Part shown: one piece after another, positions 21,357-62,513 of the stretch
Position numbering within the stretch: the first letter of the stretch is position 1
Layout: each line of letters starts with the position of its first letter
Assembly: GCF_001280565.1 (NCBI RefSeq)
Contig: NZ_LGRO01000001.1
Location: forward strand, 1,860,001 to 1,924,000
Source: Sulfobacillus thermosulfidooxidans
Lineage (GTDB): Bacteria > Bacillota > Sulfobacillia > Sulfobacillales > Sulfobacillaceae
Length of the DNA stretch: 64,000 bases
Direction: 5' to 3'
The notes under the pieces: model-generated
Told to the model about the DNA's origin: nothing
The model's database searches: none
Seen by the model: the letters and a program-made list of their open reading frames with translations, nothing else
Program-made: the position numbers and the translations under genes

Positions 21357-21378
21357 TCCCATGACCTAAGTCATGGGA
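21357..21378 (-). other. Hairpin with the hutU stop codon in its loop
   Basis: TCCCATGAC (21357-21365) and GTCATGGGA (21370-21378) form a perfect 9-bp stem whose 4-nt loop contains the TAG stop of hutU. No U-tract follows on the minus strand. It resembles the stop-codon hairpin of psuK. Confidence 0.5.
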
Positions 21379-23063
21379 ATATTGGTCTCAGGTCCCACAA
21401 ACGGTGCGCGCATGCGGTCTTCATGGGCCTTCATGGTTTGGGCAGCTAATTCATACCCCGCATCGGCGTGTCGGATCACGCCGATGCCCGGATCATTAAA
21501 GAATACGCGCGATAAGCGACCGGCACTATCCTCACTCCCGTCTGCCACCACCACAGCGCCCGCATGCAACGCATAGCCAATCCCGGTGCCTCCTCCATGA
21601 TGAAACGACACCCAATGGGCCCCCGAGGCGGTATTCAATAAGGCGTTAAGAATCGGCCAATCGGCAATCGCATCAGAACCGTCTCGCATAGCCTCTGTTT
21701 CCCGATAGGGCGAGGCCACAGAACCCGTATCATGATGGTCGCGGCCAAAGACGACGGGGGCTGACAGCACGCCTTGCGCCACCCACTCATTCACCTTTGT
21801 CGCGAACGCGTCCCGTTCCCCCAGCCCCATATAGGCGATACGCGCGGGAAGCCCTTGAAAGTGAATATATTTCTGAGCCAGCGTAAACCACCGGGTTAGC
21901 AGCGGATTATCGCCAAACATCTGAAGGGCTAAGGCGTCCAATTGATAAATTTCTTCCGGCTTTCCGGAAAGAACGGCCCAGCGAAACGGGCCCTTGCCCT
22001 GGTTAAACAAATCACGAATATACGCGGGAACATATCCGGGAATATCAAACGCATCGGTTACGCCCTGATCGAACGCTTCTCGTCGTATGTTATTACCATA
22101 ATCAAACGTATGCGCTCCCGCTTTTTGAAGTTGCAGGAGGTTCCGAACATGATGCGCAATCGAACGTCGCGCTCGTTGTAAATAATCTCCAGGATCTTTT
22201 TGGCGCCAAGACACCGCCTCGTGTACGCTGAGTTCATCAGGAATATACCCGATCAGGGGATCATGCGCGGCCGTCTGGTCTGAGAGCACATCGGGAATAA
22301 TCTTTTGCGTAATGAAATACTGTAATAGCTCATTGGCATGACAGTGAACACCAATCGATAAAGACTCGCCGGCCTGTTTTGCCGACAGAGCGCGGTTAAC
22401 AGCGGTTTCGATACTGTCGTACGCCACATCAAGATATCCGGTATCGAGACGTTTCTGAATCCGGTTCTCATCCACTTCCGCGATTAACGCCACGCCATCC
22501 AACATTTTGGCGGCTAAGGGTTGAGCGCCGCCCATTCCGCCCAATCCGGCTGAGACATAAAGACGTCCTTTCAAGGTCCCATCAAAATGTTTACGGGCCA
22601 AAGCGGCTAATGTTTCAAAGGTGCCTTGAATGACGCCTTGACTGCCAATATAAATCCATGAACCCGCCGTCATTTGTCCAAACATGGTGAGCCCTTGTTT
22701 TTCCAATCGGTCAAACTCTTCCAAGGTCGCCCACTTTCCCACCAGGTTGGCATTCGCTATCAAAACGCGCGGGGCCTGGGGTTGGGTCTTGAATATTCCT
22801 ACGGGCTTCCCCGATTGAATCAGTAAGGTTTCATCATTCTCCAAAGTCAATAAACTTTCCACAATCTTGTCATACGCTGGCCATGACCTTGCTGCCCGCC
22901 CGCGTCCTCCATAGACAATGCGCTCTGACGGATTTTCTCCGACGCGCGCATCAAGATTATTCATCAGCATGCGCAATGCCGCTTCCTGACCCCATCCTTT
23001 ACAATGCCGTGTGGGCCCCGTTGGGGCTTGAATCCCCACATGCTGGAAAAAGTCCCTGTCCAT
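21366..23063 (-). CDS. hutU: Urocanate hydratase (urocanase)
   Basis: Adds water to urocanate to give 4-imidazolone-5-propionate, using tightly bound NAD. The 565-residue length is normal. Family stretches are GWGQEAALRMLMNNLD, RIVYGGRGRAARSW, MTAGSWIYIGSQGVIQGT, SAGLGGMGGAQP (NAD binding) and VSFHHGGGTGIGY near the C-terminus. It is the last gene of the minus-strand group that begins with the RpiR-type regulator; HutI, the next enzyme, is encoded at the far end of the divergent plus-strand group. No histidine ammonia-lyase gene is present. Confidence 0.96.
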   Translation of the reverse strand: MDRDFFQHVGIQAPTGPTRHCKGWGQEAALRMLMNNLDARVGENPSERIVYGGRGRAARSWPAYDKIVESLLTLENDETLLIQSGKPVGIFKTQPQAPRVLIANANLVGKWATLEEFDRLEKQGLTMFGQMTAGSWIYIGSQGVIQGTFETLAALARKHFDGTLKGRLYVSAGLGGMGGAQPLAAKMLDGVALIAEVDENRIQKRLDTGYLDVAYDSIETAVNRALSAKQAGESLSIGVHCHANELLQYFITQKIIPDVLSDQTAAHDPLIGYIPDELSVHEAVSWRQKDPGDYLQRARRSIAHHVRNLLQLQKAGAHTFDYGNNIRREAFDQGVTDAFDIPGYVPAYIRDLFNQGKGPFRWAVLSGKPEEIYQLDALALQMFGDNPLLTRWFTLAQKYIHFQGLPARIAYMGLGERDAFATKVNEWVAQGVLSAPVVFGRDHHDTGSVASPYRETEAMRDGSDAIADWPILNALLNTASGAHWVSFHHGGGTGIGYALHAGAVVVADGSEDSAGRLSRVFFNDPGIGVIRHADAGYELAAQTMKAHEDRMRAPFVGPETNIPMT

Positions 23064-23116
23064 CGATTTCGTCCTCCTTTAATTCACTGGTTGTCCAACA
23101 ACTGAGCCGCTTGCCG

Positions 23117-24442
23117 TTACCCCCATCGCTGGGTGAGATCTTGAATTCTTCGAGTCAAATCCGTAAGATTTTCGCTTGGCAACTGGCCGTCACGTACCAC
23201 AGGTTTACCCTGAATCACGACCTGGCGAATGGCTTCCGGCGTCATCGCATAGACGATATTGGCCAAAAGTGTTTCGGGATTCCACGGCAATAGCGACAGA
23301 TGATGGAGATCGATGCCGACAAAATCGGCCCAGAAGCCTTCGGCAATTCGGCCCGCTGGTACCCCTAGCATCTCAGCCCCGGATTGTGTCCCCATATGCC
23401 AAACCTCACGGTGTGACACGCTGGTCGCATCGAGTGTGCCCACTTTTTGGAGCAGGGCAGCCATCCGCATTTCTTCAAAAATACTGGCCCGGTTATTGCT
23501 GCATCCCCCATCGGTGCCTAGCCCTATCCGGACCCCCGCTTCTCGCAGTCGCGGGAGCGGAGTAATCCCATCAGCTAAAAACATGTTGCTTGAGGGGCAA
23601 TAAGCTAAATGGGATTGAGCCTCACCCAGCACATGAATATCATCGGAATTCACCCACGTCAGATGAATCGCTATCAGTTGATCCGTGATAATCCCCAGAT
23701 CGGCCAAATGCTGCACCGGCGTTTTTCCGGTCCGGGAAAGAGTCTCGTTGACTTCAAACGGTTCCTCAGCAACATGGATATGATAGGGAGTGCCAAGACG
23801 CCGGGCTAAGTCTACTCCGGCTTGGATCATCGGATCCGACGCCCCGTGAACACTGTGGGGAGCAGGATGGATGAAAACAGCGGGATCCGGAGCACACCGT
23901 GCGGCTAATTCTTGTGTTCGATATACCGCGTCATCAGGGGTTTCACGGTACGCCTCCGGCGCCCCCTCCCAGTCATAAAAGGTCCGGGCCATGACCAGGC
24001 GGATACCAACATCCCGCGCGGCTTCAATGACCGCCCAATCATTCTCAAGGCCTTGATTGTGCACATAGAAGAAGTCGACAACCGTCGTAATGCCGTGTAA
24101 GACCATTTCGCTAAACGCCAATTTTGCTCCCCAATAAATAGCCTCCGCATTCAGATGAGGCGTAATCCGATATAACGCTATATCCCGCCACACCAAAAAC
24201 GGCTGATCGACCGCTATTCCACGCAACAAATGTTGAAAGGAGTGGGTATGGGTGTTAATCGTGCCGGGCACTAAGGCCTGATCCGCCCAGTGAATGGATC
24301 GGGCCTGAGGAAAAAGACGCGCCATCTCGTCCCGGGGACCCACCCCGACAATGGTTCCCGCGTCCTCGTCAACCACGACGCCATAATGCGCCATAAACTG
24401 CTCATTCACCCACATCCACGCGGGTTCATAAACGCTCAGCAT
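23117..24442 (-). CDS. Amidohydrolase-superfamily deaminase, candidate formimidoylglutamate deiminase (HutF-like)
   Basis: 441-residue metal-dependent deaminase of the TRZ/ATZ/HutF type. Metal ligands are in NTHTHSFQ (His 65 and 67), IHVAEE, AIHLTW and GLGTDGGCSNN. Context between hutU and an M20 hydrolase suggests formiminoglutamate to formylglutamate plus ammonia. The motifs are also close to SAH, 8-oxoguanine or cytosine deaminase types, so the substrate is not certain. The ATG at 24442 overlaps the stop of the upstream gene and follows AAAGGATG. Confidence 0.72.
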   Translation of the reverse strand: MLSVYEPAWMWVNEQFMAHYGVVVDEDAGTIVGVGPRDEMARLFPQARSIHWADQALVPGTINTHTHSFQHLLRGIAVDQPFLVWRDIALYRITPHLNAEAIYWGAKLAFSEMVLHGITTVVDFFYVHNQGLENDWAVIEAARDVGIRLVMARTFYDWEGAPEAYRETPDDAVYRTQELAARCAPDPAVFIHPAPHSVHGASDPMIQAGVDLARRLGTPYHIHVAEEPFEVNETLSRTGKTPVQHLADLGIITDQLIAIHLTWVNSDDIHVLGEAQSHLAYCPSSNMFLADGITPLPRLREAGVRIGLGTDGGCSNNRASIFEEMRMAALLQKVGTLDATSVSHREVWHMGTQSGAEMLGVPAGRIAEGFWADFVGIDLHHLSLLPWNPETLLANIVYAMTPEAIRQVVIQGKPVVRDGQLPSENLTDLTRRIQDLTQRWG

Positions 24443-25710
24443 TCTTTCACATCCTTTGAGAACATCGTATAAGATGTTCCCGGAGCATTCAGATCCCACC
24501 GTATGATGACCCGGCGCACAACCTCGGCAGCCAGCACGATATCCTCCATTTCGGCGGATTCTTCAGGACAGTGGCTGTAGCCATTACTGCGCACGAAAAG
24601 CATGCCCGTCGGCACCCGTTTGGCCAGATGAGCCGCATCATGCCCCGCCCAACTGACGAGAGCGGGATGCGGCAGTCCCATCTCATCCATCACGGCATGG
24701 AGTAAGGCTTGCACGTCCTGATCCATGAAACTCGGCTCCTGTTCCAAGATCATGTGGCGGCGGATGGATAAGTGCAGGCGCTGGCTTAATGCCTGAAGCT
24801 GTGTCCACAGGCTATCTGTCAGTTCCGCCAAGATGTCGGGATCAGGAGAACGCCATTCCACAATAAATTCGACGTGCGAGGGGATAATGTTGATGGAATT
24901 GGGAAACACGCGGACATAGCCGACCGTGCCCACCGCACGGTCGGCAAATCGCTGGCTCAATTGTTGGAAGATCATCATGGCTTGGGCAAATCCTTGAACC
25001 GCATCACGACGGGATTCATAGGGTGTCGTGCCGGCATGGTTTTGTTCTCCGGTAAGGGTAATCATTTGCCGCGTGATCCCGGTAATGGTGGTCACCACTC
25101 CCAGAGGCCATCCCGCTTCATGAAGCCGGGGACCTTGTTCAATATGGGGTTCCAAAAAACCTTTTAACGGGCCGATTGCAAATGCTGAATCGTGAAGACC
25201 AGGAGCTCCCGCTTGATCCAACGCCTTCCGCACCGAATAACCCGTCTCATCGGTCACATCCAGTACCCGATCCCACGACAGGACACCAGTTAACAAGCGG
25301 CTCCCTAAGGTCGAAAGGCGAAAAGGATTGGGTTCTTCACCGGTTAAGGCCAAAACCGCGAGAGTGTTTCGCGGTCTGTATCCCTCTTCTTGTAATGTTT
25401 GGAGGGCTTCTAAGCCTAAAATGACCCCCAGTGCCCCATCATAACCGCCACCATTTCTCACCGTATCCAAGTGGGATCCCACGGCCATAATGTCTTGCGA
25501 CGCTCCCGGCAAAAATGCCCATAGATTCCCAGCCGGATCGATTTGGGTCACAAATCCGGCCTGTTCCGCTTCCCGCAAAAACCATTGTCGTGCCGCCCGT
25601 TCCGCTGCACTGCCAAAGGGGCGGGTAATGCCTCCCGCATCATCTTGTCCGATCGCGGCAAGGGCATCAAACCGTCTTTGCAATCGAGACAACGCCAAGA
25701 TATCCGGCAT
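24436..25710 (-). CDS. M20-family amidohydrolase (N-carbamoyl-L-amino acid hydrolase / allantoate amidohydrolase-like)
   Basis: 424 residues with the binuclear-metal motifs of this branch: VGSHLDTVRNGGGYDGALG, the catalytic LTGEEPNPF and FLEPHIEQGP, and later QNHAGTTPY and AGHDAAHLA. Relatives remove carbamoyl or similar groups from amino acids. In this cluster it could take N-formyl-, N-formimino- or N-carbamoyl-glutamate to glutamate, replacing HutG. AAGGAG lies before the ATG. It follows the regulator gene by 7 bp and overlaps the deaminase gene, so all are co-transcribed. Confidence 0.85.
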   Translation of the reverse strand: MPDILALSRLQRRFDALAAIGQDDAGGITRPFGSAAERAARQWFLREAEQAGFVTQIDPAGNLWAFLPGASQDIMAVGSHLDTVRNGGGYDGALGVILGLEALQTLQEEGYRPRNTLAVLALTGEEPNPFRLSTLGSRLLTGVLSWDRVLDVTDETGYSVRKALDQAGAPGLHDSAFAIGPLKGFLEPHIEQGPRLHEAGWPLGVVTTITGITRQMITLTGEQNHAGTTPYESRRDAVQGFAQAMMIFQQLSQRFADRAVGTVGYVRVFPNSINIIPSHVEFIVEWRSPDPDILAELTDSLWTQLQALSQRLHLSIRRHMILEQEPSFMDQDVQALLHAVMDEMGLPHPALVSWAGHDAAHLAKRVPTGMLFVRSNGYSHCPEESAEMEDIVLAAEVVRRVIIRWDLNAPGTSYTMFSKDVKEC

Positions 25711-25717
25711 GGAGTCG

Positions 25718-26617
25718 TCACTCCTTATTTTTTGTGCTCGTCCGCGACCAGTAGACCTGCAAGCGTTGGTCCCGTTCTTCTAACTGTTCCAAACGCAAAC
25801 GGACGCCAGGAAGTTCTTGGGCCACTTGACGGACAAGGTAATTAATCACAAACATGGGGGCCACATACGAATCAAATAGCGACGCCGTGGCCACCGGAAC
25901 GACCAGAACCGGATCGGCAAAGGTCATGACGGGCGACATCCAGCGATCGGTTAACGCCGCCACCCTCACCCCATCGTGATGTGCCGCTTCAAGCCATTCC
26001 ATCAACACTCGGGAATAGCGAGGAAACACCCACCCCACAATGACCGTGTCCTCGGAATCCCAGCCGGCACAGTTATCCCATAAAGGCGTGCCGGGTGTCG
26101 CCACTTCCACCCCATTGCGAATCTTGCCCAAACAATATGCAGCATAGGGAATTAACGTACTCGAAATGCGCGCCCCCGCCAAAATGACGCGGGATTTGGT
26201 CGCCACCAAATTCACCAACCGGTTCATGGGTTCACTGTCTAAAATTTCGGGGAGCGATTCCAAATTCGCCACCTCTTGCGCCAATAATGGATCCGCATCG
26301 TCAGGAATACTGGGACGGAGGTAGACGGTGCGTTCGGGAGCGCGCCATTCTTCCCGGACAAATTCTTGGAGGGCATGCACAAACTCACTGTATCCCCCAA
26401 AGCCCATGCTGTGGCAAAACCGCGTGATGGAGGCTTGGCTCACACCGACCGCTTTGGCTAAGTCACCTGAACTCATAAAGGACGCTTCCCGTAAATGCAG
26501 CGCTAAGTAATCGCCAATTTGCTGATGCGTGATCGACTCGCTTGATGCCAGTCGAATCCGGTCCATAAATCCTTCAATACTCTGTAGTGGCTTCATCGAA
26601 TGCGTATCCTCATTCAT
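25718..26617 (-). CDS. RpiR/MurR-family transcriptional regulator (HTH plus SIS domain)
   Basis: 299 residues. The N-terminal helix-turn-helix (SSGDLAKAVGVSQASITRFCHSMGFGGYSEF, split here as residues about 50-80) is the RpiR type; residues about 125-270 form a SIS-like domain (RVILAGARISS). It heads the M20-deaminase-hutU operon and diverges from the permease/HisD-like operon, so it probably controls both from the 26618-27119 region in response to a pathway intermediate. The start is uncertain; an ATG at 26596 is an alternative. Confidence 0.87.
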   Translation of the reverse strand: MNEDTHSMKPLQSIEGFMDRIRLASSESITHQQIGDYLALHLREASFMSSGDLAKAVGVSQASITRFCHSMGFGGYSEFVHALQEFVREEWRAPERTVYLRPSIPDDADPLLAQEVANLESLPEILDSEPMNRLVNLVATKSRVILAGARISSTLIPYAAYCLGKIRNGVEVATPGTPLWDNCAGWDSEDTVIVGWVFPRYSRVLMEWLEAAHHDGVRVAALTDRWMSPVMTFADPVLVVPVATASLFDSYVAPMFVINYLVRQVAQELPGVRLRLEQLEERDQRLQVYWSRTSTKNKE

Positions 26618-27119
26618 AAACGAATAGTGTGTGAATCAGTTGTTCCACAAAATTTTAGCACAAAGAGAATATTTGAATAAGCTCATTCCGCCAATTTTTT
26701 GTATAAAAACCAATTTACCCAGAATCCTGCTAATTTGTCGTCTAATTGCGTCAGCCTTACAGTATATATTTGACATCTATCTTACATGATTCATTGTGCT
26801 GAACTCACAAATCATGAATAAAAATAATGAACATGTTCTAAACCCATTGACATCATCTCCTGTTTGTTTTTACTGTAAACGTGTAACACTCTATTCTCTT
26901 TGAAATATATTTAAATGACTTCATTCATCCTGTGTTGTCTTAACCTATCTGTTTCGTGATTCATGGTAGTCGTTGCCGGCCCCTGTGCTTATGCCCCAAA
27001 TTTTCCAGTTCGTAAGATGGTCCCATTCAAGACGCCCTGACTTAGGCTGCCACCTACGCTTAGAGGAACATTTTTCAGTCGTTAAGGTAGTGATTGAAAA
27101 TATGATAGGAGGAAACAAG
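26618..27119. promoter_or_regulatory. Divergent control region of the imidazole cluster
   Basis: About 500 bp, A+T rich, between two divergent operons. Two perfect palindromes stand out: GAACATGTTC (26829-26838) and TTTACTGTAAA (26869-26879). TTGACA boxes occur at 26847-26852 and around 26770. AGGAGG lies before the permease ATG. The palindromes are candidate operators for the RpiR-type protein; promoter assignment is not firm. Confidence 0.5.
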
Positions 27120-28526
27120 ATGAGCGAGTTATCTGCCGTCGAAAAGGCCATCGAGCGTCACAGTTATGACGTCATTCCTCTCACGGAACGACACGGGACG
27201 CCCAAATGGTTATTTTTCATGTGGTATGGGATTAACGCACAAATTTTTGTTGTAGCTACAGGGGCACTAGGTGTACTGATTGGCTTGAATTTTTGGGGTA
27301 CGGTGTTGGCCATTGTTGTAGGGAATATTGTCGGTAGCATTTTTATGGCACTCCATTCCGCTCAAGGGCCCAAATTGGGCTTACCGCAGATGATTCAAAG
27401 CCGCGCTCAATTCGGTTTTTATGGATCACTGTGGCCACTATTTATTGTGTGGGCCATGTATGTCATTTTTGCAGCCACTAATATTGTGATGGCCGGACAA
27501 GCTTTTCAAGCTGTCTACCATGGTTCTGTCAATTCCTGGGCGGCCATCTTGACCATCCCCATGATTCTCATCGCGATTTTTGGCTATGACTGGATCCATT
27601 ATGGATTTCGCTATGCAACCTGGCTTTATTCCATCGTCTTTATTGTGCTCACGGTCATGTTGCTTGTTCACGGTTTACCCGCTCATGATCTCGCCCATGG
27701 GAAATTTACTTGGGGCAACTTTTTCTTAGCGTTATCTATTTATGCAACCTGGCAAATTTCTTATGCGCCCTATGTATCGGATTACTCCCGGTACTTGAGC
27801 CCGAATCTTGCCACTCATACGTTCTGGGCAACATTTTGGGGTACCAACATCGGGTCTATCTGGCTTATGATTTTAGGAGCCGCCTTAGCCGCTCTCAATC
27901 CCGCCGCTCAGACTCTTTCTGCTATTCAGGGATTAGGTGGTCACAGTTGGGGAACGATTATCGCCCTATTACTCGGGATAGGTCAACTCATCCCCGGAGC
28001 CGTCAATATTTATGGCGGAGCCATTGTGACGCTTTCCGCAGGTAGTAATATTCGTCCGTTTGAATCCACTCGCATATTGCGAAGTGTCGTGGCTCTCGTG
28101 ATAGGAATATTATCGGCACTTATGGCAATTGCTGGTTCCGGGCATTTCATGACCAATGTTGAAAATTTTCTACTCTTCCTGATGTACTTCTTGATCCCAT
28201 GGACCGCCATCAATCTCACCGACTTCTATTGGATCCACCATGGTAACTATAAAATCTCCGATTTATTCACGTCTAAGGGCGTCTATGGACGGTGGGGATG
28301 GCCCGCACTGATTGTGTACACCGTGACCTTTCTCGTCGAAGTTCCATTTATGAACACGACCGTCTACCAGGGGCCTATTTCCAAAGCTTTAGGCGGAGCC
28401 GACATTTCATGGATTGTCGGCCTCATTGTTGCGGTGCCCCTGTACTACTGGGCAGACCGTAAATGGGGTAAAAAAGATGCGATTAGTTCCGTGTTAACAG
28501 ACAGAGAACCCCAAATCGTAGAATAG
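27120..28526 (+). CDS. NCS1-family permease (second copy, imidazole cluster)
   Basis: 468-residue membrane protein with about 12 hydrophobic segments, of the cytosine/purine/hydantoin symporter family (WYGINAQIFVVATGALGV near the start, then MIQSRAQFGFYGS, then YAPYVSDYSRYL). AGGAGG lies just before the ATG at 27120; the open frame upstream has no ribosome site. It is the first gene of the plus-strand operon and diverges from the regulator. It is clearly different in sequence from the permease at 8292. The context suggests uptake of an imidazole compound. Confidence 0.86.
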   Translation: MSELSAVEKAIERHSYDVIPLTERHGTPKWLFFMWYGINAQIFVVATGALGVLIGLNFWGTVLAIVVGNIVGSIFMALHSAQGPKLGLPQMIQSRAQFGFYGSLWPLFIVWAMYVIFAATNIVMAGQAFQAVYHGSVNSWAAILTIPMILIAIFGYDWIHYGFRYATWLYSIVFIVLTVMLLVHGLPAHDLAHGKFTWGNFFLALSIYATWQISYAPYVSDYSRYLSPNLATHTFWATFWGTNIGSIWLMILGAALAALNPAAQTLSAIQGLGGHSWGTIIALLLGIGQLIPGAVNIYGGAIVTLSAGSNIRPFESTRILRSVVALVIGILSALMAIAGSGHFMTNVENFLLFLMYFLIPWTAINLTDFYWIHHGNYKISDLFTSKGVYGRWGWPALIVYTVTFLVEVPFMNTTVYQGPISKALGGADISWIVGLIVAVPLYYWADRKWGKKDAISSVLTDREPQIVE

Positions 28527-28605
28527 CTCTGAACAAACCATCACAGTTATTAAAATTTTACAATCCCAATAAAGAAAGAAGGGAACGGGATTATCCCGGA
28601 TTTGT

Positions 28606-30585
28606 GTGATAACCATCAGATATTGGGATAGACTTACAGATTCAGAACGCCAGAATCTTCTCATACGTGGAGAAATGCATTATCCCGATATTCAAGCCAC
28701 CGTGGAAAACATTCTCCAAGAGGTTAAAGTGTATGGTGATGATGCGTTATGGCGTTTAGAAAAAGAACTTGACCAGGCGGATCTCCGGGCATGTGGCCTG
28801 AAAGTCACCGAAGCTGAATTCATCAACGCGGAACAGCAATTACCCGAGCATCTCAAAGCGGCAATAGACCATAGTATTGCCAATATCAAACGGTTTCATC
28901 TCAAGCAGGTTCCCCCATTGTCATGGTCAACGGAAATCCTTCCTGGAGTCCACGTGGGAGAAATCACGAAGCCCATTGCCTCAATTGGACTCTATGTTCC
29001 CCGCGGAAAGGGCTCTTTTCCCTCGGTTATGGCAATGCTCGGCGTGCCAGCGGTCCTTGCCGGAGTTCCTCAAATTATTGTGGCTTCCCCTCCGGGTCCT
29101 CAAGGGACAATTGACCCCGCTGTACTCTATGTGGCAAGCCAATTGGGCATTTCCCACGTCTTTCGTATAGGCGGCGCACAAGCTATCGCAGCTATGGCGT
29201 ATGGGACAATGTCCGTGCCTAAGGTAGCTAAAATTTTGGGACCCGGCAGTGCCTTCGTTGCCGTCGCCAAACAACAACTGGCTGGTTTTATAGATATTGG
29301 TTTGCAGTCAGGACCCAGCGAGGCTCTCATCATAGCCGATGACCATGCCAATGCCAAATGGGTCGCCCTGGACTGGATGAATGAAGCTGAACATGGACCC
29401 GACTCCACCGTATTTCTTGTCACGCCATCTGCCACGTTAGCCCAACAAGTAGCCCGTTTTGTTGAGGAATATTATGAACGATTGCCCGAGCCCCGCCGTC
29501 AATTTGTCGAGCAGGTTGCACAAAAGGGAGGAATTCTCATCACCCCAAATCTCTCCATAGCGTTAGACTTTGTTAACGATTTCGCCGCCGAACACCTGGT
29601 GCTTCATGTCGCCGACCCTGATGGCGTTGTGCCCCACATTCATCATGCCGGAGAAATTCTTATTGGACCCTTTACACCCATTGCGGCAGGCAACTTTATG
29701 GTAGGACCTAATGCCGTCTTGCCCACAGCAGGATTTGCTCGCAGTATGTCTGCTCTTAGCATTCGTGATTTCTTACATGTCACATCGGTTCTAAGGCTTT
29801 CGAAAAATGCCCTTATCGAGATGGCTTCCGATATTGTCACGATAGCCGAATATGAAGGATTTACGGCTCACGCTCTCTCAGTCACCGGTCGAGACTTAGC
29901 GGTGAGCGGAGCAACACATACAAGTCATCCCGAACAAGAACTAGGAATATTTTGGCACGAAATCACTAAGGACCGGATCCATGTCAAGAGACGAACACGG
30001 GAATCAATTATTGAACTGCAACTATCCCGGGGACCTCGTGATGAGGCGTTAAAAGAACATGTGCGAACCGGACTGCAATTCCTTAATCATATGCTTGAAA
30101 CGATTGCCTGGCGAGGACAGTTTAATCTGGCGGTAACATATCACGCTCAAGAGGCCAAGGAATATCACTTGATGCATGTCATTGCCGAGGATGTCGGTCT
30201 TACGTTAGGTCTTGCCTTCCACCGTATGGCTCAAGAACATTTATTTTATGGCATTGAAGGCTCAGGGTTTGCCGTGGGCGTCATCGACGAAGCCGAGTCT
30301 TTTGTGGCTATCAGTCTTGAAGGACGCCCCTTCTTGCAATGCGAGTACGATCCTTCCGTTCGTCAGCTCGAACACGTAGAAGATATGCTGACCACGGATT
30401 TGGAGAATGTCTTGTCCGGCTTCGCTCAAGGGGCTCTGGCTACACTTCATGTCATGGTCCGCCGGGGACACGATCCCCACCACCTGTGGGAATCGGTTTT
30501 CCGTGCGCTCGGTGAAGCCATGAATGCCTGCTTACGGCCCAATGCGTTCAGGCAAGGAACGACACCGGGAGTCAAGGGAATTTAA
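28606..30585 (+). CDS. HisD-like dehydrogenase fused to a HisB (IGPD)-like domain
   Basis: 659 residues. Residues 1-435 are a histidinol-dehydrogenase-like NAD enzyme (VPRGKGSFPSVMAMLGVPA, FAAEHLVLH with Glu 329/His 330). Residues about 458-659 are an imidazoleglycerol-phosphate-dehydratase-like domain (RRTRES, FLNHMLE, DEAES, GHDPHHLWES). Metal ligands are altered: the HisD zinc Gln and Asp are Glu 260 and Asn 363 (His 263 and His 422 kept); in IGPD the HH pair is His 524-Val 525. A GTG start at 28606 follows AAGAAGGGA, with a small hairpin between. The catabolic context argues against histidine synthesis. Inferred role: oxidising and dehydrating an imidazole C3 alcohol or diol. The substrate is unknown. 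Confidence 0.85.
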   Translation: MITIRYWDRLTDSERQNLLIRGEMHYPDIQATVENILQEVKVYGDDALWRLEKELDQADLRACGLKVTEAEFINAEQQLPEHLKAAIDHSIANIKRFHLKQVPPLSWSTEILPGVHVGEITKPIASIGLYVPRGKGSFPSVMAMLGVPAVLAGVPQIIVASPPGPQGTIDPAVLYVASQLGISHVFRIGGAQAIAAMAYGTMSVPKVAKILGPGSAFVAVAKQQLAGFIDIGLQSGPSEALIIADDHANAKWVALDWMNEAEHGPDSTVFLVTPSATLAQQVARFVEEYYERLPEPRRQFVEQVAQKGGILITPNLSIALDFVNDFAAEHLVLHVADPDGVVPHIHHAGEILIGPFTPIAAGNFMVGPNAVLPTAGFARSMSALSIRDFLHVTSVLRLSKNALIEMASDIVTIAEYEGFTAHALSVTGRDLAVSGATHTSHPEQELGIFWHEITKDRIHVKRRTRESIIELQLSRGPRDEALKEHVRTGLQFLNHMLETIAWRGQFNLAVTYHAQEAKEYHLMHVIAEDVGLTLGLAFHRMAQEHLFYGIEGSGFAVGVIDEAESFVAISLEGRPFLQCEYDPSVRQLEHVEDMLTTDLENVLSGFAQGALATLHVMVRRGHDPHHLWESVFRALGEAMNACLRPNAFRQGTTPGVKGI

Positions 30586-30737
30586 CGAGAGCCCACTGGT
30601 CATTGGTTATCCAAAGCTGCTTCCACCTTATGGTATAAATTCAGCGCCATGAAATCATTGACGAGTTCTTGATGTCACAAACGATGATAGAAACTAAAGG
30701 ACTCCCATCAAGTCTAGCATAGGAGAGAGAATACTCC

Positions 30738-31514
30738 ATGAATGACGCGATAGCCGAGATTATGTCTTTAAAAAATCACATAGCTCTCGTGACAGGAGGA
30801 AGTCAAGGCATTGGAGAGAAAACAGCTAAAATATTAGCAGAATCCGGAGCCGAGGTCGTCATTTGTTCGCGTTCAGAAGATCGTTTGAAAGCAGCGCAAA
30901 AACGTCTAGCAGCTCAAGGTCAGCACGTCCACACAGTTTTGTGTGATATCAAGAATCCCGGAAGTATTGCCCTTATGGTACAAGAGATCGAAGAACATAT
31001 CGGTCCCATCAGTATTTTGGTGAACAACGCGGGCGTTGATATCCCTATGGCTGCTCTCGACGTGACAGAAGAAACGTGGACGACCATCATGGACACCAAC
31101 GTCAAGGGAGTTTTCTTCTGTGCCCAGCAGGTAGCCCGCTTCATGATTCCCCGCAATCAGGGCGTCATTATCAATTTGGCATCTGAATTGAGCTTTGTAG
31201 GGATGGTTCCCTATGCGGTCTATGCCATTAGCAAAGGCGCTGTTGTCCAATTAACCAAAACATTGGCACTAGAATGGGCTCCTCATCACATCCGTGTCAA
31301 TGCCATAGCCCCAACTTTAGTCGAGACGCCCATGCTTGATGCGCTTTTTAGTCATCCCGAGCACGCAATGAGGCAGTGGATTAACATGATCCCGTTAGGA
31401 CGTTTAGGCACACCCACTGACGTGGCGCACGCCATCGCATTTTTAGCGTCAGACGCGGCATCTTTTATTACCGGGACCATACTTCCGGTTGATGGCGGGC
31501 GATTGTGCCACTAA
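30738..31514 (+). CDS. Short-chain dehydrogenase/reductase (canonical)
   Basis: 258-residue SDR with the full set of motifs: TGGSQGIGEKT for the cofactor, NNAG, Ser in INLASELS, and YAISK for the catalytic Tyr/Lys. The C-terminal LPVDGG is typical of the FabG-like group. AGGAGAG lies before the ATG at 30738. It lies between the HisD-like fusion and the aconitase X genes. Inferred role: interconversion of a keto and hydroxy group on the imidazole side chain, for example imidazolepyruvate and imidazolelactate. Confidence 0.87.
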   Translation: MNDAIAEIMSLKNHIALVTGGSQGIGEKTAKILAESGAEVVICSRSEDRLKAAQKRLAAQGQHVHTVLCDIKNPGSIALMVQEIEEHIGPISILVNNAGVDIPMAALDVTEETWTTIMDTNVKGVFFCAQQVARFMIPRNQGVIINLASELSFVGMVPYAVYAISKGAVVQLTKTLALEWAPHHIRVNAIAPTLVETPMLDALFSHPEHAMRQWINMIPLGRLGTPTDVAHAIAFLASDAASFITGTILPVDGGRLCH

Positions 31515-31573
31515 TCTTCGCCCAACCACAGCAGCAATGACGACTGTAACGTCCACAGGAAGGAGACCTGACA

Positions 31574-32776
31574 TTGGTTCTCACCGAAGAAGAAATCGCC
31601 ATGCTTGAGGGAAAGTACGGGGAAGGAACCGCTTTAGCCATGCGGATACAAGTCGGCATTGGAGAAGCGTTTGACGCCCAACGCCTGGTACCCATTTCCC
31701 GAGCACATGTCGCATTAAGTAACCAAGAAGCCGATTTGTGGTTTGTCGAAAAGCTTCTCCATCTCGGAGCCGCATGCCGCGTTTCTCCAACCGTCAATCC
31801 CGGATTTGATCTGTCCTATTTTTCCACTGTGGCCACGGTGAAATCCCAGGATTTAGAGCAAATGGCGCGAACAGCTCAAGCTTATCGGGATATCGGAGCC
31901 ATTTTAAATTACAGCTGTACGCCTTATTTGTTTGACAATATTCCCCGTCTTCATGAAATCATCGCGTTTTCGGAAAGCAGTGCCACCCCCTACGTAAATG
32001 CAGTCTATGGAGCCAGGACTAACCGTGAATCAGCTCAAAGTGCCTTGTGTGCTGCCATTACAGGACGTGTTCCGGAATACGGATTATTATTAGACGAAGC
32101 CCGATATGGAACGGTCTTGGTACAAATCGAAGCGCGGTTGCAGTCTGATTTCGACTACCAACTCCTTGGCTATGCTATTCCTAAAAAGATTCATGGTGAA
32201 GTTCCCGTCTTTATGGGCATTCCCAAAGACGTTACACCCGAATCCCTGATGAATCTTGGGGCCGAACTTAATACCGCTGGAGCTGTACCCATGTATCACA
32301 TTTTGGGCGTGACTCCCGAAGCCCAAAGTCTGGAACAAGCTACCGGATACCGAAAGAATCTGAATACGGTCGTCATTACCAATCAGGATTTAGAACGGGT
32401 CCATGACCAGATTTCCAAGAAACCAGGACCTATTGAGTTTGTGATGCTCGGTTGTCCTCATCTCACGCTCAGGCAAATTCAAAATATTGCCCAGTTAATT
32501 CATGGACACAAACTCCGTACCGAATTATGGATCAACACATCCGCCCATACACGTCTTTTGGCCGAACGTCTCGGTATTGCTCAAATTATTGAGGATGCGG
32601 GTGGCCACATTCTCCAAGACTCCTGCGTCGACCAGCCCATTTGGGCTCATCTCGCCGGGAAAATCGGCGCCACCGACTCGCCCAAATGCGCTTATTATAC
32701 GGCCAGACGGTCGATGGATTTTGTTATTCGCAGTATCGAAGAGTGTGTGGCTGCGGCAATAAAGGGGGAAATTTGA
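31574..32776 (+). CDS. Aconitase X large (catalytic) subunit
   Basis: 400-residue protein of the AcnX/DUF521 family, Fe-S hydro-lyases known to dehydrate cis-3-hydroxyproline or mevalonate 5-phosphate. Three well-placed cysteines could hold the cluster: Cys 115 (NYSCTPYL), Cys 294 (LGCPHLT) and Cys 351 (DSCVDQP). The start is a TTG with AAGGAG 7 bp upstream. Its stop overlaps the start of the small subunit (TGATG). In this cluster the attractive role is dehydration of imidazolelactate to urocanate, the HutU substrate; this is inference. Confidence 0.88.
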   Translation: MVLTEEEIAMLEGKYGEGTALAMRIQVGIGEAFDAQRLVPISRAHVALSNQEADLWFVEKLLHLGAACRVSPTVNPGFDLSYFSTVATVKSQDLEQMARTAQAYRDIGAILNYSCTPYLFDNIPRLHEIIAFSESSATPYVNAVYGARTNRESAQSALCAAITGRVPEYGLLLDEARYGTVLVQIEARLQSDFDYQLLGYAIPKKIHGEVPVFMGIPKDVTPESLMNLGAELNTAGAVPMYHILGVTPEAQSLEQATGYRKNLNTVVITNQDLERVHDQISKKPGPIEFVMLGCPHLTLRQIQNIAQLIHGHKLRTELWINTSAHTRLLAERLGIAQIIEDAGGHILQDSCVDQPIWAHLAGKIGATDSPKCAYYTARRSMDFVIRSIEECVAAAIKGEI

Positions 32777-33204
32777 TGGTAAACGCAGTGAACAATTCAA
32801 AAGAGTTTTCTTGCCACAAAATTTCTGGTGGGAGAGCCGAGGCTCCTTGCATTATTTCTCCCGATGATATCTGTTTTTACCTCTGCGATCCCAAAACAGG
32901 CATCGTCTTAGAAGAAGGTCATGCCTTGAAAGGCCGCAGTCTCGCTGACAAAATCGTCATTTTCCCCAGTGGCAAGGGTAGCTCAGTGGTTCAAACCGAC
33001 GGACTCTTCCAGTTAGCGATGAATGGGAATGCTCCCAAAGCTATTATCGTGCAATACCCCGACACAGTACTTGTGGCCAGTTGTATTATTCTAGATATTC
33101 CGATGGTCGACCGCGTCGATCCCGCCTTTTACCACTGGATCGAGTCAGGCGTAACACTCCACCTCGATGCCGATAGGGAAAGAATCCGCGTGATGGCGCC
33201 TTGA
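32776..33204 (+). CDS. Aconitase X small (swivel) subunit
   Basis: 142-residue DUF126-type swivelling domain (KISGGRAEAPCIIS, IVIFPSGKGSSVVQTDGLFQL, PMVDRVD). The PSGKGSS loop is the family signature, and the serine of this loop acts in catalysis in known AcnX enzymes. The ATG overlaps the large-subunit stop and AAAGGGGG lies upstream, so the two parts are made in equal amounts. Two-gene AcnX is the usual bacterial and archaeal form. Confidence 0.88.
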   Translation: MVNAVNNSKEFSCHKISGGRAEAPCIISPDDICFYLCDPKTGIVLEEGHALKGRSLADKIVIFPSGKGSSVVQTDGLFQLAMNGNAPKAIIVQYPDTVLVASCIILDIPMVDRVDPAFYHWIESGVTLHLDADRERIRVMAP

Positions 33205-35768
33205 ATTCTGTGACATCATCTATTTCGGCAGAACAAAAAAGCAAGATTATGCAAGCGCTCTTGCCCATCGTCGGCCAAGATGCTCTCATCGCTCAGTCAG
33301 ATGCCCTAACTTCCTACCGGTATGATGCGACGGGACAGGCGGGACATCCGGACTTGGTAGTGTTGCCCTCCTCAACTAGCGCCTTAAGGCAGGTTCTCAA
33401 AATCCTCGAATCTTTTTCATCCCTTCCTATCATCGTTCGCGGTTCGGGAACGAACTTGTGCGGTGGCACGGTCCCCAAAACCGGTGGTGTTGTCATTGCC
33501 CTGACCCGCCTTCAGAGTTGGCTCTATCACGATCTTAGAAACCGCTATATTGTCGTGGAATCCGGTCTCTTAACCGCATCAGTGAACCACCGCCTAAATC
33601 CTTTAGGCTATCATTATGGACCAGATCCCGGCAGTTATCATATCTCCACAATTGGCGGCAACGTAGCCGAAAATGCCGGAGGCATTCATGGCGTCTCCTA
33701 TGGCGTGACCACCCAACATGTGTTGCAAATGCATATCTATATCGGCAATAAGGGCCTCTTGACGCCCACTATTCACGACTTCCGAACCACGCTTGATATC
33801 ACTGGATTACTGGTTGGCTCCGAAGGCACATTAGCTATAGTCGATACAGTTATTTTAAATATTTTGCCGCAATGGCCTCATATAGCGACGATGCTTATCA
33901 TATTTTCAACCCTACCTGAGGCCGTGGATACAGCTTTGGGTGTTTTAGCTGCTGCTGTTTCTGTAAGCGCTTTAGAACTTATGGACGAGGCTTCCCTTAA
34001 GGTGATTCAACCTCTCATGAAAGACATGGATTTTGGGAAGGCTCAGGCCGCATTGCTCATCGACATCCACTCGTCGCCGGCACGCTTATTTCAAGAGTCG
34101 ATGTACCTCAAAGAAATTACTAAGAAGTATGGGGCTCTAAAGGTTCTCCTCGCTGAAACAGCGACCGAATCACGTTCATGGTGGGAAGGACGGCGGGCGC
34201 AATATGGTGCGGCGGCGCGTCTGGCTCCTCGACTATGGGTACAAGATGTAGCCGTACCTCTGTCCCAACTCAAATCATTGTTCCGACGTATTGAGGAGAT
34301 TCAATCATCTTATGCCATGCCCATCATTACCGTCGCTCATGCAGGCGATGGGAACCTTCATCCGGACATTCCCTACGATCCGACATCCGCCACAGAAGTC
34401 AGTCGTGCTCACGCGATGGTCGACGCTATTCTCCAAGAAGCCGTCGCTTTAGGCGGAACCATATCCGGTGAACATGGCATAGGCCATGACAAACTTCCCT
34501 ATTTAGGGCTTATGTATGGAGATGAGGAGCAACATGTTTTTGCCGCCATTAAACAGTGTTTTGATCCAGACTGGCGTTTAAATCCTGGTATTGCCGTGTA
34601 CAGAACGGCCCTGAAAGACCTTCAATATCCACTAATCAGTTCTCCCACTTCTTCGATATCGCAAAAGTCCTCTAGTTTGTGGCAGCCCGGTAATCTTAAC
34701 GAACTTCAAGAGATGATATATACAGCATCTCGTTCACATCTCACGCTGACAGTTCAAGGTGCCGGACACTGGCAAAATATCTTGCAGTGTGAAGACACCA
34801 GGATGATTCAACCCATATCTTTGTGCGCTTTTAGTTCCATCCATGAATTGGACCCGGAGAGTTTATCCATCACGGTGGGTGCTGGAATACCCAATGCTGA
34901 ATTAACCGACTTTCTCGCATCTTATCATCTTCAGCATGCGCTAGTCAGCGGCCATCCTCAAGGTACTACCGGGGGTCTAGTCAGCCGCAATAATAGGTCA
35001 TGGCACCATAGCTATCAATTTGGATGGCGCGACACCCTTTTGGCGATATCGGTTATCGACGGACAAGGGCGTCATCTCAAATTCGGCAGCAAAGCTATCA
35101 AGGACGTAGCCGGATACGACGTCAAAAAATTGTTTATCGGTTCTTGGGGAGCGTTAGGAATCATCACCTCATTAACATTCAAACTTGAGACGATACCAAA
35201 AACCTTGTTATGGGGCACCTTTCGGGCAAAAACCCTTCAACAATTGCTAAACATCGCAATCGATTTGGGTTCTCATGCGTACCGGCCTGAAGCTATATTC
35301 ATAAAACGCTGGTCCTTTACGGATCCCGAACTGGTGATTCGAATCTTAGGCCCTCACTGTCCTGAAATGAGGAGGCTGGCAGAACAATTGGCCCTGTCCT
35401 ATCAAGCCGATCTGACGTGGCAACAATCGGAGTTCCAGGACGACCTTGATATACAGCGAGAGAACAATATTCGTAATGCATGGCAACAACATGGCTATTG
35501 CTATGAAGGTGGGGTCTGGCCCACCGATCTGCTCAACCTCATTCCTGTAATAGGCGACCGTTTGTTCACTTTGTTTCCTGTCTCAGGAGCTTATGAAATT
35601 TATGGCCAACTTCCCTTTTCTCGGGTGCTGCCAGGTCTTCACCGGGTGTGGCATCCCAACAATCATTGGAGTCTAACCTATCCCACCTGGCACCCTTATG
35701 TCCAGGGTCTCAAAGAAATCTTTGATCCCAAACAAATCTTTGCTGTCCCGTGGACTGTAAGCCTATAG
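33201..35768 (+). CDS. Fused GlcD-GlcE-type FAD-linked 2-hydroxyacid dehydrogenase
   Basis: 855 residues with two flavoprotein modules. Residues 1-470 are GlcD-like (GSGTNLCGG and ENAGGIHGVSYG for FAD; HAGDGNLHP and GEHGIGHDK for the active site). Residues about 480-855 are GlcE-like, with a shorter FAD domain ending in KDVAGYDVKKLFIGSWGALG. Normally these are separate subunits of glycolate oxidase with an Fe-S GlcF, which is absent here. The TTG start overlaps the AcnX stop. Likely role: oxidising a D-2-hydroxyacid such as imidazolelactate to the keto acid, or disposing of electrons; the substrate is not known. Confidence 0.83.
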   Translation: MNSVTSSISAEQKSKIMQALLPIVGQDALIAQSDALTSYRYDATGQAGHPDLVVLPSSTSALRQVLKILESFSSLPIIVRGSGTNLCGGTVPKTGGVVIALTRLQSWLYHDLRNRYIVVESGLLTASVNHRLNPLGYHYGPDPGSYHISTIGGNVAENAGGIHGVSYGVTTQHVLQMHIYIGNKGLLTPTIHDFRTTLDITGLLVGSEGTLAIVDTVILNILPQWPHIATMLIIFSTLPEAVDTALGVLAAAVSVSALELMDEASLKVIQPLMKDMDFGKAQAALLIDIHSSPARLFQESMYLKEITKKYGALKVLLAETATESRSWWEGRRAQYGAAARLAPRLWVQDVAVPLSQLKSLFRRIEEIQSSYAMPIITVAHAGDGNLHPDIPYDPTSATEVSRAHAMVDAILQEAVALGGTISGEHGIGHDKLPYLGLMYGDEEQHVFAAIKQCFDPDWRLNPGIAVYRTALKDLQYPLISSPTSSISQKSSSLWQPGNLNELQEMIYTASRSHLTLTVQGAGHWQNILQCEDTRMIQPISLCAFSSIHELDPESLSITVGAGIPNAELTDFLASYHLQHALVSGHPQGTTGGLVSRNNRSWHHSYQFGWRDTLLAISVIDGQGRHLKFGSKAIKDVAGYDVKKLFIGSWGALGIITSLTFKLETIPKTLLWGTFRAKTLQQLLNIAIDLGSHAYRPEAIFIKRWSFTDPELVIRILGPHCPEMRRLAEQLALSYQADLTWQQSEFQDDLDIQRENNIRNAWQQHGYCYEGGVWPTDLLNLIPVIGDRLFTLFPVSGAYEIYGQLPFSRVLPGLHRVWHPNNHWSLTYPTWHPYVQGLKEIFDPKQIFAVPWTVSL

Positions 35769-35813
35769 AATCTGGCACAATATTGTAGATACTCTGAATG
35801 CAACAGGAGCTGA

Positions 35814-37052
35814 ATGATCATGTATTATCTCATTATTCACGGAACTGTTTATCCGGTGACCACTCCCCGTGCGCCCCGGCGCGGAGGAGAACTAGGCTCT
35901 CAGTCTATTGTGGCTGATGGGGCCATCGTGATTAAAGACGGCCTTATACAGGCGCTCGGGCCCACCGAGGATATTCTCCAGGCTTATCGGTCCCCAGACC
36001 AGATTTTTGATGCCCAAGGCCGTATTGTCATCCCCGGTTTTGTAGACTGTCACACCCATTTACCCTTTGCGGGTTGGCGGGCCGATGAATACCGTAGTCG
36101 TCTCTTAGGCCAATCCTATCAAAATCTCGGACGTGGTGAAGGAGGCATTGCCCGGTCTAGTCGCCAATTAAATATCCAGAGCGATGAGCAGGTACTCACC
36201 TTTACGGAATCGTTGACACGGGAGATGTTATCGACCGGTACGACTGCATTTGAAATGAAGAGTGGATATGGACTCAGCGTCCAAGGGGAACTTCGCCAGC
36301 TCGCTCTTATTCAGCGTTTAAAGTCCCGCCTCGATCAGCGTATCACAGCCACCGGCTTGTTCCTTCACGCGCTCCCTCAAGAATACACCGCAGACAACTG
36401 GGTCGATGTCGTCATTGATGAGCTTCTTCCTGCCGCTCATGAAAGACAACTGGTTGACGCTGTCGACGTGTTTATCGAGTCGACAGCTTTTACGCCTGAA
36501 CAGGCTCAGAGATTTTTACACGCCGCGCAACGTCTCAATTTGATTCTTCGGGTGCATAGTGACCAATTTTCTCACATGGGAGGAACCGCGTTGGCTCTCG
36601 CGCTTGGTGCCCGGGGCATTGATCATTTGGATCATCTGACGTCAGAAGATGTTGCGGCATTTGGTGATTCGCGGTCAGTTGCCGTGCTCTTACCTGCTGC
36701 TACGTATAGCATGAATCATCAGCCCTTTCCTCCAGCACGGGACTTAATCGAACACAACGCAGCCATTGCTATCGCCTCTGATTTTAATCCTGGGACAGCG
36801 CCGATTTCTCACATGCCCCTCATTATATCGTTAGCAGTCCATCTTTTTGGTCTCACACCGGAAGAAGCCTTAAGCGCAACCACTATAAATCCGGCCTATG
36901 TGTTAGGGATAGAACAAGAAGTCGGTTCAATAGAAGTGGGAAAACGTGCCGATCTTCTCATTTTAGACACTGATCAACTAGAAAGCATTCCATACAGAGC
37001 CGGACATAATCCAATTTATCAGGGTTTTGTAAAAGGAAAACAAATTCGGTAA
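35814..37052 (+). CDS. hutI: Imidazolonepropionase
   Basis: Hydrolyses 4-imidazolone-5-propionate (from HutU) to N-formimino-L-glutamate. 412 residues. Metal and substrate motifs are GFVDCHTHLPFAGWRADE, EMKSGYGLS, LRVHSDQFSHMGG, and ASDFNPGTAP near the C-terminus. AGGAGC lies just before the ATG; a second ATG two codons later is also usable. It is the last gene of the plus-strand operon. HutU and HutI on opposite arms of the divergent cluster tie both operons to one pathway. Confidence 0.95.
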   Translation: MIMYYLIIHGTVYPVTTPRAPRRGGELGSQSIVADGAIVIKDGLIQALGPTEDILQAYRSPDQIFDAQGRIVIPGFVDCHTHLPFAGWRADEYRSRLLGQSYQNLGRGEGGIARSSRQLNIQSDEQVLTFTESLTREMLSTGTTAFEMKSGYGLSVQGELRQLALIQRLKSRLDQRITATGLFLHALPQEYTADNWVDVVIDELLPAAHERQLVDAVDVFIESTAFTPEQAQRFLHAAQRLNLILRVHSDQFSHMGGTALALALGARGIDHLDHLTSEDVAAFGDSRSVAVLLPAATYSMNHQPFPPARDLIEHNAAIAIASDFNPGTAPISHMPLIISLAVHLFGLTPEEALSATTINPAYVLGIEQEVGSIEVGKRADLLILDTDQLESIPYRAGHNPIYQGFVKGKQIR

Positions 37053-37433
37053 TACATTGTAAAATCTAATTCCAAAAATCTCGCTTTGTTATCAAAATAT
37101 TTGCTACTGAATGTTTTTGAATTTAACAAGTCGGTCCCATGGTAACACTAGGTTAACTCCCCTAATTGTAAACAACTCATTGATGACTGGACCTAGAGCA
37201 TCTCGGAACACCATATTATCAGAAAAGCCCAAAAGGATAGGGAATGTGTCTGGCTTATTATATCCCGTTTTACGACTCATTTACTGCGAAAGCAAACGTC
37301 AGTAAAGTCATTTGGTCCACTGATACACACATAGCAGGACACGCTTCGGAACTAGGAACATCCTCGGTTGCCCAACCGCTTCCGTACCTAGGAAACATCT
37401 TTGATATCCACATATGGACTAAACCGTTAATTA
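37053..37433. other. Intergenic region after hutI
   Basis: About 380 bp between the convergent hutI and GtrA-type genes. I see no gene with a ribosome site, no convincing terminator hairpin and no repeat. Base composition becomes A+T richer to the right. Confidence 0.4.
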
Positions 37434-37865
37434 TCAATTCTTCAATAATCCAAACGTTACAAAGTTATTTAATGTAAAATTCCAGATAAAAGCTACGCCA
37501 AGACTAACTGCCATACTTACCGCTACATTCCAATGAAGAATTCCAGCTAATAAATATAAACTTAGCTCGTTAATGCCCAATCCAATACTCGCAATAGATG
37601 CGAAGATGCCAAACTGACGACCGATTTGAGCATATCGATTTCGAAATGCCCACCGGCGACTAAGAGGAAAATTAATGAATAACCCGACAATAAAGCCGAT
37701 ACCCTGACTATAAATAAAATTTATGGACAAAAAATGAAACAATATCACACTACTTATCCACGCACATACTGCCGATATCGTACCGCTAACAATGTATTTC
37801 AATAACCTTTTTCCGATTGGAGAATTAACCTGGACGTGGTCATTTATCATCAATATATTCCTCAT
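37434..37865 (-). CDS. GtrA-like membrane protein
   Basis: 143 residues, four hydrophobic segments, with the GtrA signature near residue 20 (KYIVSGTISAVCAW) and NFPLSRRWAF after the second helix. GtrA-type proteins are thought to flip polyprenyl-phosphate-linked sugars across the membrane. Its ATG overlaps the stop of the upstream flavoprotein gene (ATGA), so it belongs to a three-gene minus-strand operon for a surface glycan. Confidence 0.85.
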   Translation of the reverse strand: MRNILMINDHVQVNSPIGKRLLKYIVSGTISAVCAWISSVILFHFLSINFIYSQGIGFIVGLFINFPLSRRWAFRNRYAQIGRQFGIFASIASIGLGINELSLYLLAGILHWNVAVSMAVSLGVAFIWNFTLNNFVTFGLLKN

Positions 37866-45972: not shown

Positions 45973-45998
45973 ATATGTCGCCTCACATCCTTACTCAA

Positions 45999-48892: not shown

Positions 48893-48926
48893 AAACGCCT
48901 CGCTTTCTCTCTATCATTTACCATAA

Positions 48927-49631: not shown

Positions 49632-49663
49632 GGTTGTTAACCCATCTTTCTCCGTGGTATCCC

Positions 49664-50629: not shown

Positions 50630-50751
50630 ATAAATTAAATTCCTCCTTAGTCATTAGACGTCATTGATAACCACCATGCTCGATCCGTCATCGACAACCT
50701 GTCAACAAATTATCACGCTCATGAGTGCTTGCGGGCGGATAGACCATCAAA

Positions 50752-52752: not shown

Positions 52753-52754
52753 AC

Positions 52755-53513: not shown

Positions 53514-53605
53514 GGCCAGACATCACATCCCTGTCACCACAAAATACGAAACACCATCAGTGTTCGTCATTATTTGCCAAAAATCCTTCTTCCTGCCAGT
53601 TACTT

Positions 53606-58981: not shown

Positions 58982-58987
58982 TTGATT

Positions 58988-61235: not shown

Positions 61236-61246
61236 GAGGTATAGGG

Positions 61247-62347: not shown

Positions 62348-62351
62348 TTTT

Positions 62352-62395: not shown

Positions 62396-62403
62396 ACCAC
62401 GTG

Positions 62404-62444: not shown

Positions 62445-62482
62445 ACGTTTGTTATTCCCAATATATTCCATAATATCTTTTA

Positions 62483-62511: not shown

Positions 62512-62513
62512 GG

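Follow-up and report, generated by a model that had tools for sequence, protein, structure and literature searches.

A fused HisD-like and HisB-like protein of Sulfobacillus thermosulfidooxidans and a possible non-phosphorylated ending of histidine biosynthesis in Bacillota

Histidine biosynthesis is taught as a single invariant route. The described systems closest to the protein reported here are two of its enzymes, histidinol dehydrogenase (HisD, EC 1.1.1.23; E. coli structure 1kae) and imidazoleglycerol-phosphate dehydratase (HisB or IGPD, EC 4.2.1.19; IGPD2 structure 4mu0), together with HpsN, the (R)-dihydroxypropanesulfonate 3-dehydrogenase (structures 8v35 and 9cp9), the hut pathway and the canonical his operon, as in Ilyobacter (hisZ-G-D-C-B-H-A-F-IE). 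HpsN, which has the HisD fold, was recruited to a vicinal diol and turns the CH2OH of this substrate into COOH: the 2-OH of dihydroxypropanesulfonate takes the zinc site of the histidinol amine, and the loop that reads GSAPL in HisD reads GRYxH in HpsN (PMC11382572). In the IGPD of Arabidopsis thaliana (At), whose numbering we follow for HisB residues, His74 is a ligand of Mn1, and His55, Arg99 and Lys177 contact the phosphate (Bisson et al. 2015, PMC4509728).

The window analysed here is the whole stretch of 64,000 nucleotides from S. thermosulfidooxidans. An earlier note on it had described a single frame joining the modules of these two non-consecutive steps, both with changed metal ligands, and had proposed a new reaction on an imidazole side chain in a catabolic setting. 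We refer to the two domains and their relatives as HisD* and HisB* (or IGPD*).

The fused protein and its two domains

The frame described in the earlier note is real: it has a GTG start, runs without interruption and holds both Pfam domains complete.

28606..30585, plus strand: HisD*-IGPD* fusion protein, 659 amino acids (open reading frame and translation, Pfam)
28606..29910, plus strand: HisD* domain (histidinol-dehydrogenase fold), residues 1-435
29977..30582, plus strand: IGPD* (HisB*) domain, residues 458-659

Pfam profiles recovered both domains in this one frame, PF00815 (Histidinol_dh) matching residues 22-429 with 454 bits and PF00475 (IGPD) residues 488-639 with 103 bits (cut-off 27). 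The NCBIfam HisD model TIGR00069 was also passed, with 439 bits for a cut-off of 244. In AlphaFold models, the HisD* half (pLDDT 75) had E. coli HisD as its best solved match (1kae; Z 37.3, rmsd 4.6, 410 residues aligned) and also matched the HpsN structures with a Z of about 30-34, while the best solved match of the HisB* half (pLDDT 79) was A. thaliana IGPD2 (4mu0; Z 24.1, rmsd 2.1, 180 residues aligned). A congener (G003) carries a fused homologue of 658 amino acids, 85% identical, within an equivalent gene cluster. This identical layout rules out an assembly or annotation artefact, as well as a frameshift that, once corrected, would give two separate genes.

Elsewhere in the genome, on contig C2, S. 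thermosulfidooxidans has a separate canonical operon (hisC-hisZ-hisG-hisD-hisB-hisH-hisA-hisF-hisIE), so the fusion is an additional enzyme. An ordinary second his copy is ruled out by the clade and residues described below, a canonical function still being a rival. A contig scan for homologues of the fusion found ordinary HisD and HisB loci only. In the open-access literature searched, we found neither an alternative end to histidine biosynthesis nor this fusion described, an absence that we take as weak evidence.

Clade membership and active-site residues

Pooled profile scores separated both domains from their ordinary counterparts: HisD* scored at least 561 bits against at most 460 for all other HisD, and HisB* at least 258 bits against at most 128 for all other HisB. 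Each formed a single clade, with an SH-aLRT of 99 for HisD* and 100 for HisB*, in quick tree searches without bootstrap. When the IGPD half was searched for, the gap was of 340 bits or more against 121 bits in the class of the fusion organism, and of 227-248 bits in five genomes against 120 bits in a sample of the phylum; in two further classes, 6 of 46 and 19 of 98 genomes were above threshold. In the trees, the fusion and G003 proteins, with the lone HisB* of genome G008, formed a sister branch to all others. The G008 protein (L042, 2820-3446) is 62% identical to the fusion domain and lies between a transposase-like gene and a following SDR gene; no HisD* was found in this genome, nor as a remnant upstream of the lone HisB*.

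Residues were compared over 31 HisD* and 31 HisB* rows, a few of which repeat one gene from overlapping loci. For HisD*, the positions that differ from the E. coli enzyme include the following.

29005..29019, plus strand: GKGSF signature loop, residues 134-138; K135 and F138 in 31/31 HisD*
29383..29385, plus strand: Glu260 (E. coli Gln259, zinc ligand); E in 31/31 HisD*, Q in 55/55 ordinary HisD
29692..29694, plus strand: Asn363 (E. coli Asp360, zinc ligand); N in 31/31, D in 75/75
29713..29715, plus strand: Ala370 (E. coli His367); A in 31/31, H in 70/75

The fusion thus departs from the HisD zinc-ligand set of Gln, His, Asp and His, since it has Glu260, His263, Asn363 and His422 in their place. 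HisD* retains both histidine zinc ligands, Glu414 and the catalytic pair Glu326-His327 of E. coli, the latter as Glu329-His330 in the fusion and conserved in 31/31 rows. HisD* therefore shares with HisD its fold, its catalytic Glu-His, two of the four zinc ligands and the Pfam and TIGR00069 matches, but differs by a Gln-to-Glu and Asp-to-Asn swap, by the loss of His367 and by GKGSF instead of GSAPL, with an IGPD domain fused in the window protein. Membership of HpsN was rejected, as the fusion has GKGSF at 134-138 instead of the GRY(A/S)H motif; HpsN, in contrast, keeps the Gln and Asp zinc ligands, is unfused and acts on a sulfonate, not an imidazole. In genome G159, a second HisD-like protein (L115, 1462-2754) on a very long branch has the ordinary Gln and Asp ligands.

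For HisB*, the changes concern one metal ligand and the phosphate contacts.

30112..30114, plus strand: Arg503 (At His55, phosphate contact); R in 31/31 HisB*, H in 67/72 ordinary HisB
30178..30180, plus strand: Val525 (At His74, Mn1 ligand); V in 29 and L in 2 of 31, H in 71/71
30259..30261, plus strand: Gly552 (At Arg99, phosphate contact); G in 30/31, R in 72/72
30502..30504, plus strand: Arg633 (At Lys177, phosphate contact); R in 31/31, K in 70/70

In addition, Ser199 of the C-loop is replaced by Gly (Gly655 in the fusion), so the whole phosphate-binding set of IGPD (H55, R99, K177 and S199) is changed in the fusion. HisB* retains Glu21 (acid-base), Glu173 (Mn1 ligand and base), H47, H73, E77, H169 and H170. 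Like HisB, the fusion has the IGPD fold and keeps seven of the eight Mn ligands (H47, H73, H74, E77, H145, H169, H170 and E173), His74 being Val525; unlike HisB, it stays below each of the NCBIfam HisB equivalog cut-offs, its best score being 96 bits against cut-offs of at least 189. Judging from these residues, the dehydration machinery is conserved, whereas the site for the substrate tail has been remodelled together with one side of Mn1. Since HisB* has Arg503, Arg574 and Arg633, the tail is still likely to be anionic; a carboxylate would fit, and phosphate may still be bound.

Each residue that the earlier note had named (Glu260, His263, Asn363, His422, Glu329-His330, Arg503 and Val525) is present as described. 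The list was incomplete, as Ala370, the GKGSF loop, Gly552 and Arg633 are invariant changes as well, and its metal ligands for the IGPD half held for Val525 but not for Arg503, which occupies the place of a phosphate contact. The changes go beyond chance: they are invariant in the 31 HisD* and 31 HisB* rows and absent from the ordinary enzymes compared.

We considered whether one domain, most likely HisB*, could have lost catalysis altogether and persist as a remnant with a structural or regulatory role. One Mn1 ligand is indeed missing, and the copy of Monoglobus pectinilyticus also has a Phe at the Mn2 ligand His145; Glu21, Glu173 and most other ligands are, on the other hand, invariant over 31 rows and several families, and we regard this idea as hardly credible. 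The main rival is that HisD* and HisB* have diverged in their active sites but still catalyse the canonical reactions, HisD* as a histidinol dehydrogenase and HisB* as an IGP dehydratase whose phosphate site has been rebuilt, the fusion being a second copy recruited to a catabolic cluster. That HisD* passes the NCBIfam HisD cut-off and that three arginines could still hold the phosphate agree with it, whereas the ligand swap and the HisB* changes are invariant where ordinary enzymes retain the canonical residues, and HisB* falls below every HisB equivalog cut-off. Moreover, a fusion of non-adjacent steps is hard to explain in a genome that has a canonical pair. On the whole, we find this rival rather unlikely.

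The unfused pair in other Bacillota

The unfused HisD*/HisB* pair is usually the sole HisD and HisB of its genome. G057, G208, G403, G447 and G526 have no HisD other than HisD*, and all five have HisA and HisF. In G447, G159, G526 and G553, the pair ends an operon of the order hisZ-G-H-A-F-I-D*-B*; in G555, hisG-A-F-I precede it on a short contig, and in G565 hisIE stands before it, with hisZGHAF on another contig. The upstream steps to IGP are encoded by the same genes as in the canonical Ilyobacter operon; the gene order differs, and hisC is usually lacking. Several genomes that make histidine thus have no other HisD/HisB than this pair, which stands last in their his operon, so it is not a purely catabolic invention. 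The earlier idea of a changed reaction on the imidazole side chain is supported by the clade-wide, invariant active-site changes, but a catabolic reading alone is incomplete. These contexts, and the presence of HisA and HisF, would also suit the canonical rival.

A second arrangement, in which HisD* and HisB* are followed by a HAD hydrolase, was found in family f100 (19 HisB* genomes), in G057, which belongs to another class, and in M. pectinilyticus, a few short contigs showing only one neighbour. M. pectinilyticus also carries hisH and hisF. Its HisB* (L159, 16320-16940), the only one with Phe at His145, is named 'hypothetical protein' by NCBI. The HAD hydrolase that follows HisB* is of about 400 amino acids with an FDMDGVIT motif (L102 9264-10541, L103 9998-11191 and f100 loci L142-L158), and no specific match above cut-off was found for this family among the NCBIfam phosphatase models. 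We regard it as a candidate IGP phosphatase; under the canonical rival, it would fit a histidinol-phosphatase equally well. Histidinol-phosphatases of the hisJ family were both present and absent in both groups of genomes.

No HisC (histidinol-phosphate aminotransferase) was found in G447, G159, G553, G555 and G565, five of six operon-type genomes. The best HisC score was 171 bits in G447 and 127 bits in G159 for a cut-off of 277, and the matches of about 250 bits in G553, G555 and G565 were assigned to CobD, not HisC, by score and neighbourhood. The sixth genome, G526, has two HisC-family genes, both in transporter clusters. HisC-family genes of 341-358 bits were also present, near tsaD, in the D*-B*-HAD genomes G057, G208 and G403, which accords with the canonical rival, while the lack of HisC in the operon-type genomes speaks against it. 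For comparison, ten class-mates chosen as being without HisB*, in which an ordinary HisB was not individually confirmed, all scored at least 247 bits for HisC; only five passed the cut-off, those below it not being separated from CobD, and in six of the ten the match lay no more than a few kilobases from HisA. The absence of HisC supports a HisC-free route in operon-type genomes, without proving it, and as these genomes are related it may reflect one evolutionary event.

The catabolic gene cluster and the proposed reactions

The fusion lies in one of two divergent operons, with an NCS1 permease, SDR, aconitase X, GlcD-GlcE and HutI on the plus strand, and RpiR, amidase, HutF-like and HutU genes on the minus strand. 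This bears out the catabolic setting noted earlier.

21366..23063, minus strand: urocanate hydratase HutU (TIGR01228, 852 bits, cut-off 375)
23117..24442, minus strand: HutF-like formimidoylglutamate deiminase (NF006681, 257 bits, below the cut-off of 362; start inferred from G003)
24436..25710, minus strand: M20 carbamoylase/formylglutamate-type amidohydrolase (TIGR01879, 339 bits, cut-off 204)
25718..26617, minus strand: RpiR/SIS-type regulator (PF01418 and PF01380)
27120..28526, plus strand: NCS1-family permease, likely importer (PF02133, 183 bits; equivalent place in G003, from which the ATG start is inferred)
30738..31514, plus strand: SDR oxidoreductase, proposed imidazolepyruvate/imidazolelactate step (PF13561, 231 bits; an SDR follows the G008 HisB* too)
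31574..32776, plus strand: large subunit of aconitase X, proposed to dehydrate imidazolelactate (PF04412, 424 bits)
32776..33204, plus strand: aconitase X small (swivel) subunit (PF01989, 92 bits)
33201..35768, plus strand: GlcD-GlcE fused FAD 2-hydroxyacid oxidase (PF02913, two FAD_binding_4 stretches; TIGR00387, 400 bits)
35814..37052, plus strand: imidazolonepropionase HutI (TIGR01224, 379 bits, cut-off 298)

By their scores, the identities of HutU and HutI are secure. Ergothioneine or thiourocanate catabolism was rejected, as the urocanase scores as a true HutU and the thiourocanate hydratase models stay below cut-off. The cis-3-hydroxy-L-proline dehydratase model gave 233 bits on aconitase X for a cut-off of 700, this model spanning a fused two-subunit protein. 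The cluster thus shares with the hut pathway HutU and HutI, the HutF-like deiminase and the amidase, but has no HutH, and entry into urocanate seems to proceed via HisD*-HisB*, SDR and aconitase X. A HutH gene (L044, G000:C1:1987145-1988524) stands about 100 kb from HutU with no other hut genes beside it, so the ordinary breakdown of histidine may also depend on the fusion cluster. No Rfam match was found in 20000-38000.

Adjoining the imidazole cluster, 569-20625 holds a reductive pyrimidine catabolism operon with a dihydropyrimidinase (629 bits) and PreA (627 bits), both above cut-off, along with another NCS1 permease and an ABC transporter of the BMP type. A PfkB-type kinase and a neighbour that, judged by eye alone, resembles pseudouridine glycosidase suggest an island for the salvage of nucleobases or nucleosides. 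Further on, 44980-63277 holds a CRISPR locus with type I-B Cas1 (448 bits) and Cas3, a Cmr2/Cas10 gene of type III-B, and an array of repeats that reads FQFLIGRLRT again and again when translated.

From the residues and contexts, we infer the substrates, the reaction order and the catabolic steps upstream of urocanate. It is quite possible, though somewhat short of probable, that the fused enzymes act consecutively on a non-phosphorylated imidazole side chain, from imidazoleglycerol to imidazolylglycerate and on to imidazolepyruvate. HisD*, dependent on NAD and zinc, would oxidize the CH2OH end of imidazoleglycerol to the carboxylate of imidazolylglycerate, with the 2-OH of the substrate on the zinc where histidinol puts its amino group; HpsN offers a precedent for this. 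HisB*, with manganese and the IGPD fold, would then remove the 3-OH by the usual diazafulvene/enol chemistry to give imidazolepyruvate. The substrate carboxylate would be received by the new arginines and at the Mn1 position left free by the loss of His74. On a non-phosphorylated side chain the two steps would be adjacent, so the puzzle of non-consecutive steps would disappear and the fusion would be explained. Against this consecutive reading, G057, G208 and G403 keep a HisC-like gene, the HAD neighbour would equally suit a histidinol-phosphatase, and G008 has HisB* without HisD*.

In the reverse order, HisB* would convert imidazoleglycerol into imidazoleacetol, whose CH2OH HisD* would then oxidize to imidazolepyruvate. 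The residues for elimination of the C3-OH are kept in HisB*, and no anionic tail would be needed, in keeping with the loss of Arg99. This order nevertheless seems improbable, as Arg503 and Arg633, both new and invariant, point to a substrate with a negative charge and a ketone is a poorer zinc ligand than the amine or hydroxyl of HisD and HpsN (PMC11382572). A purely catabolic fusion, in which HisD* would turn another imidazole compound, such as imidazolelactaldehyde or an imidazolyl-propanediol, into imidazolelactate for aconitase X and HisB* would have another role, agrees with its site among hut genes and aconitase X and with its lineage being the sister branch of all unfused ones. However, the diagnostic residues are all common to the members in his operons, which argues for the same reactions, and we hold this alternative to be quite improbable.

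Building on the consecutive reading, we propose, a little more tentatively, a second and non-phosphorylated ending of histidine biosynthesis in Bacillota, run by HisD* and HisB* without histidinol or histidinol-phosphate aminotransferase, and a similar degradation of imidazoleglycerol by the fusion via imidazolelactate and urocanate. In the Bacillota where the unfused pair replaces HisD and HisB, a putative phosphatase, HisD*, HisB* and a general aminotransferase would act in turn to lead from IGP to histidine, so that the four kinds of chemical operation known from the textbook branch would merely be rearranged. In S. thermosulfidooxidans, imidazolepyruvate would be reduced to imidazolelactate (SDR/GlcDE) and this converted to urocanate by aconitase X, a reaction for which we know of no precedent. 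Urocanate would then yield imidazolonepropionate, formiminoglutamate, formylglutamate and glutamate through HutU, HutI, HutF and the amidase.

If true, this proposal would account for the existence of the fusion and would mean that two metalloenzymes jointly changed their ligands so that a carboxylate is accepted where a phosphate and an amine were before. An alternative histidine ending would have been hidden by automated annotation, in which HisD* is called HisD and HisB* a 'hypothetical protein', and what look like gaps in the histidine synthesis of Clostridia-type bacteria, the gut species M. pectinilyticus among them, would become a testable pathway.
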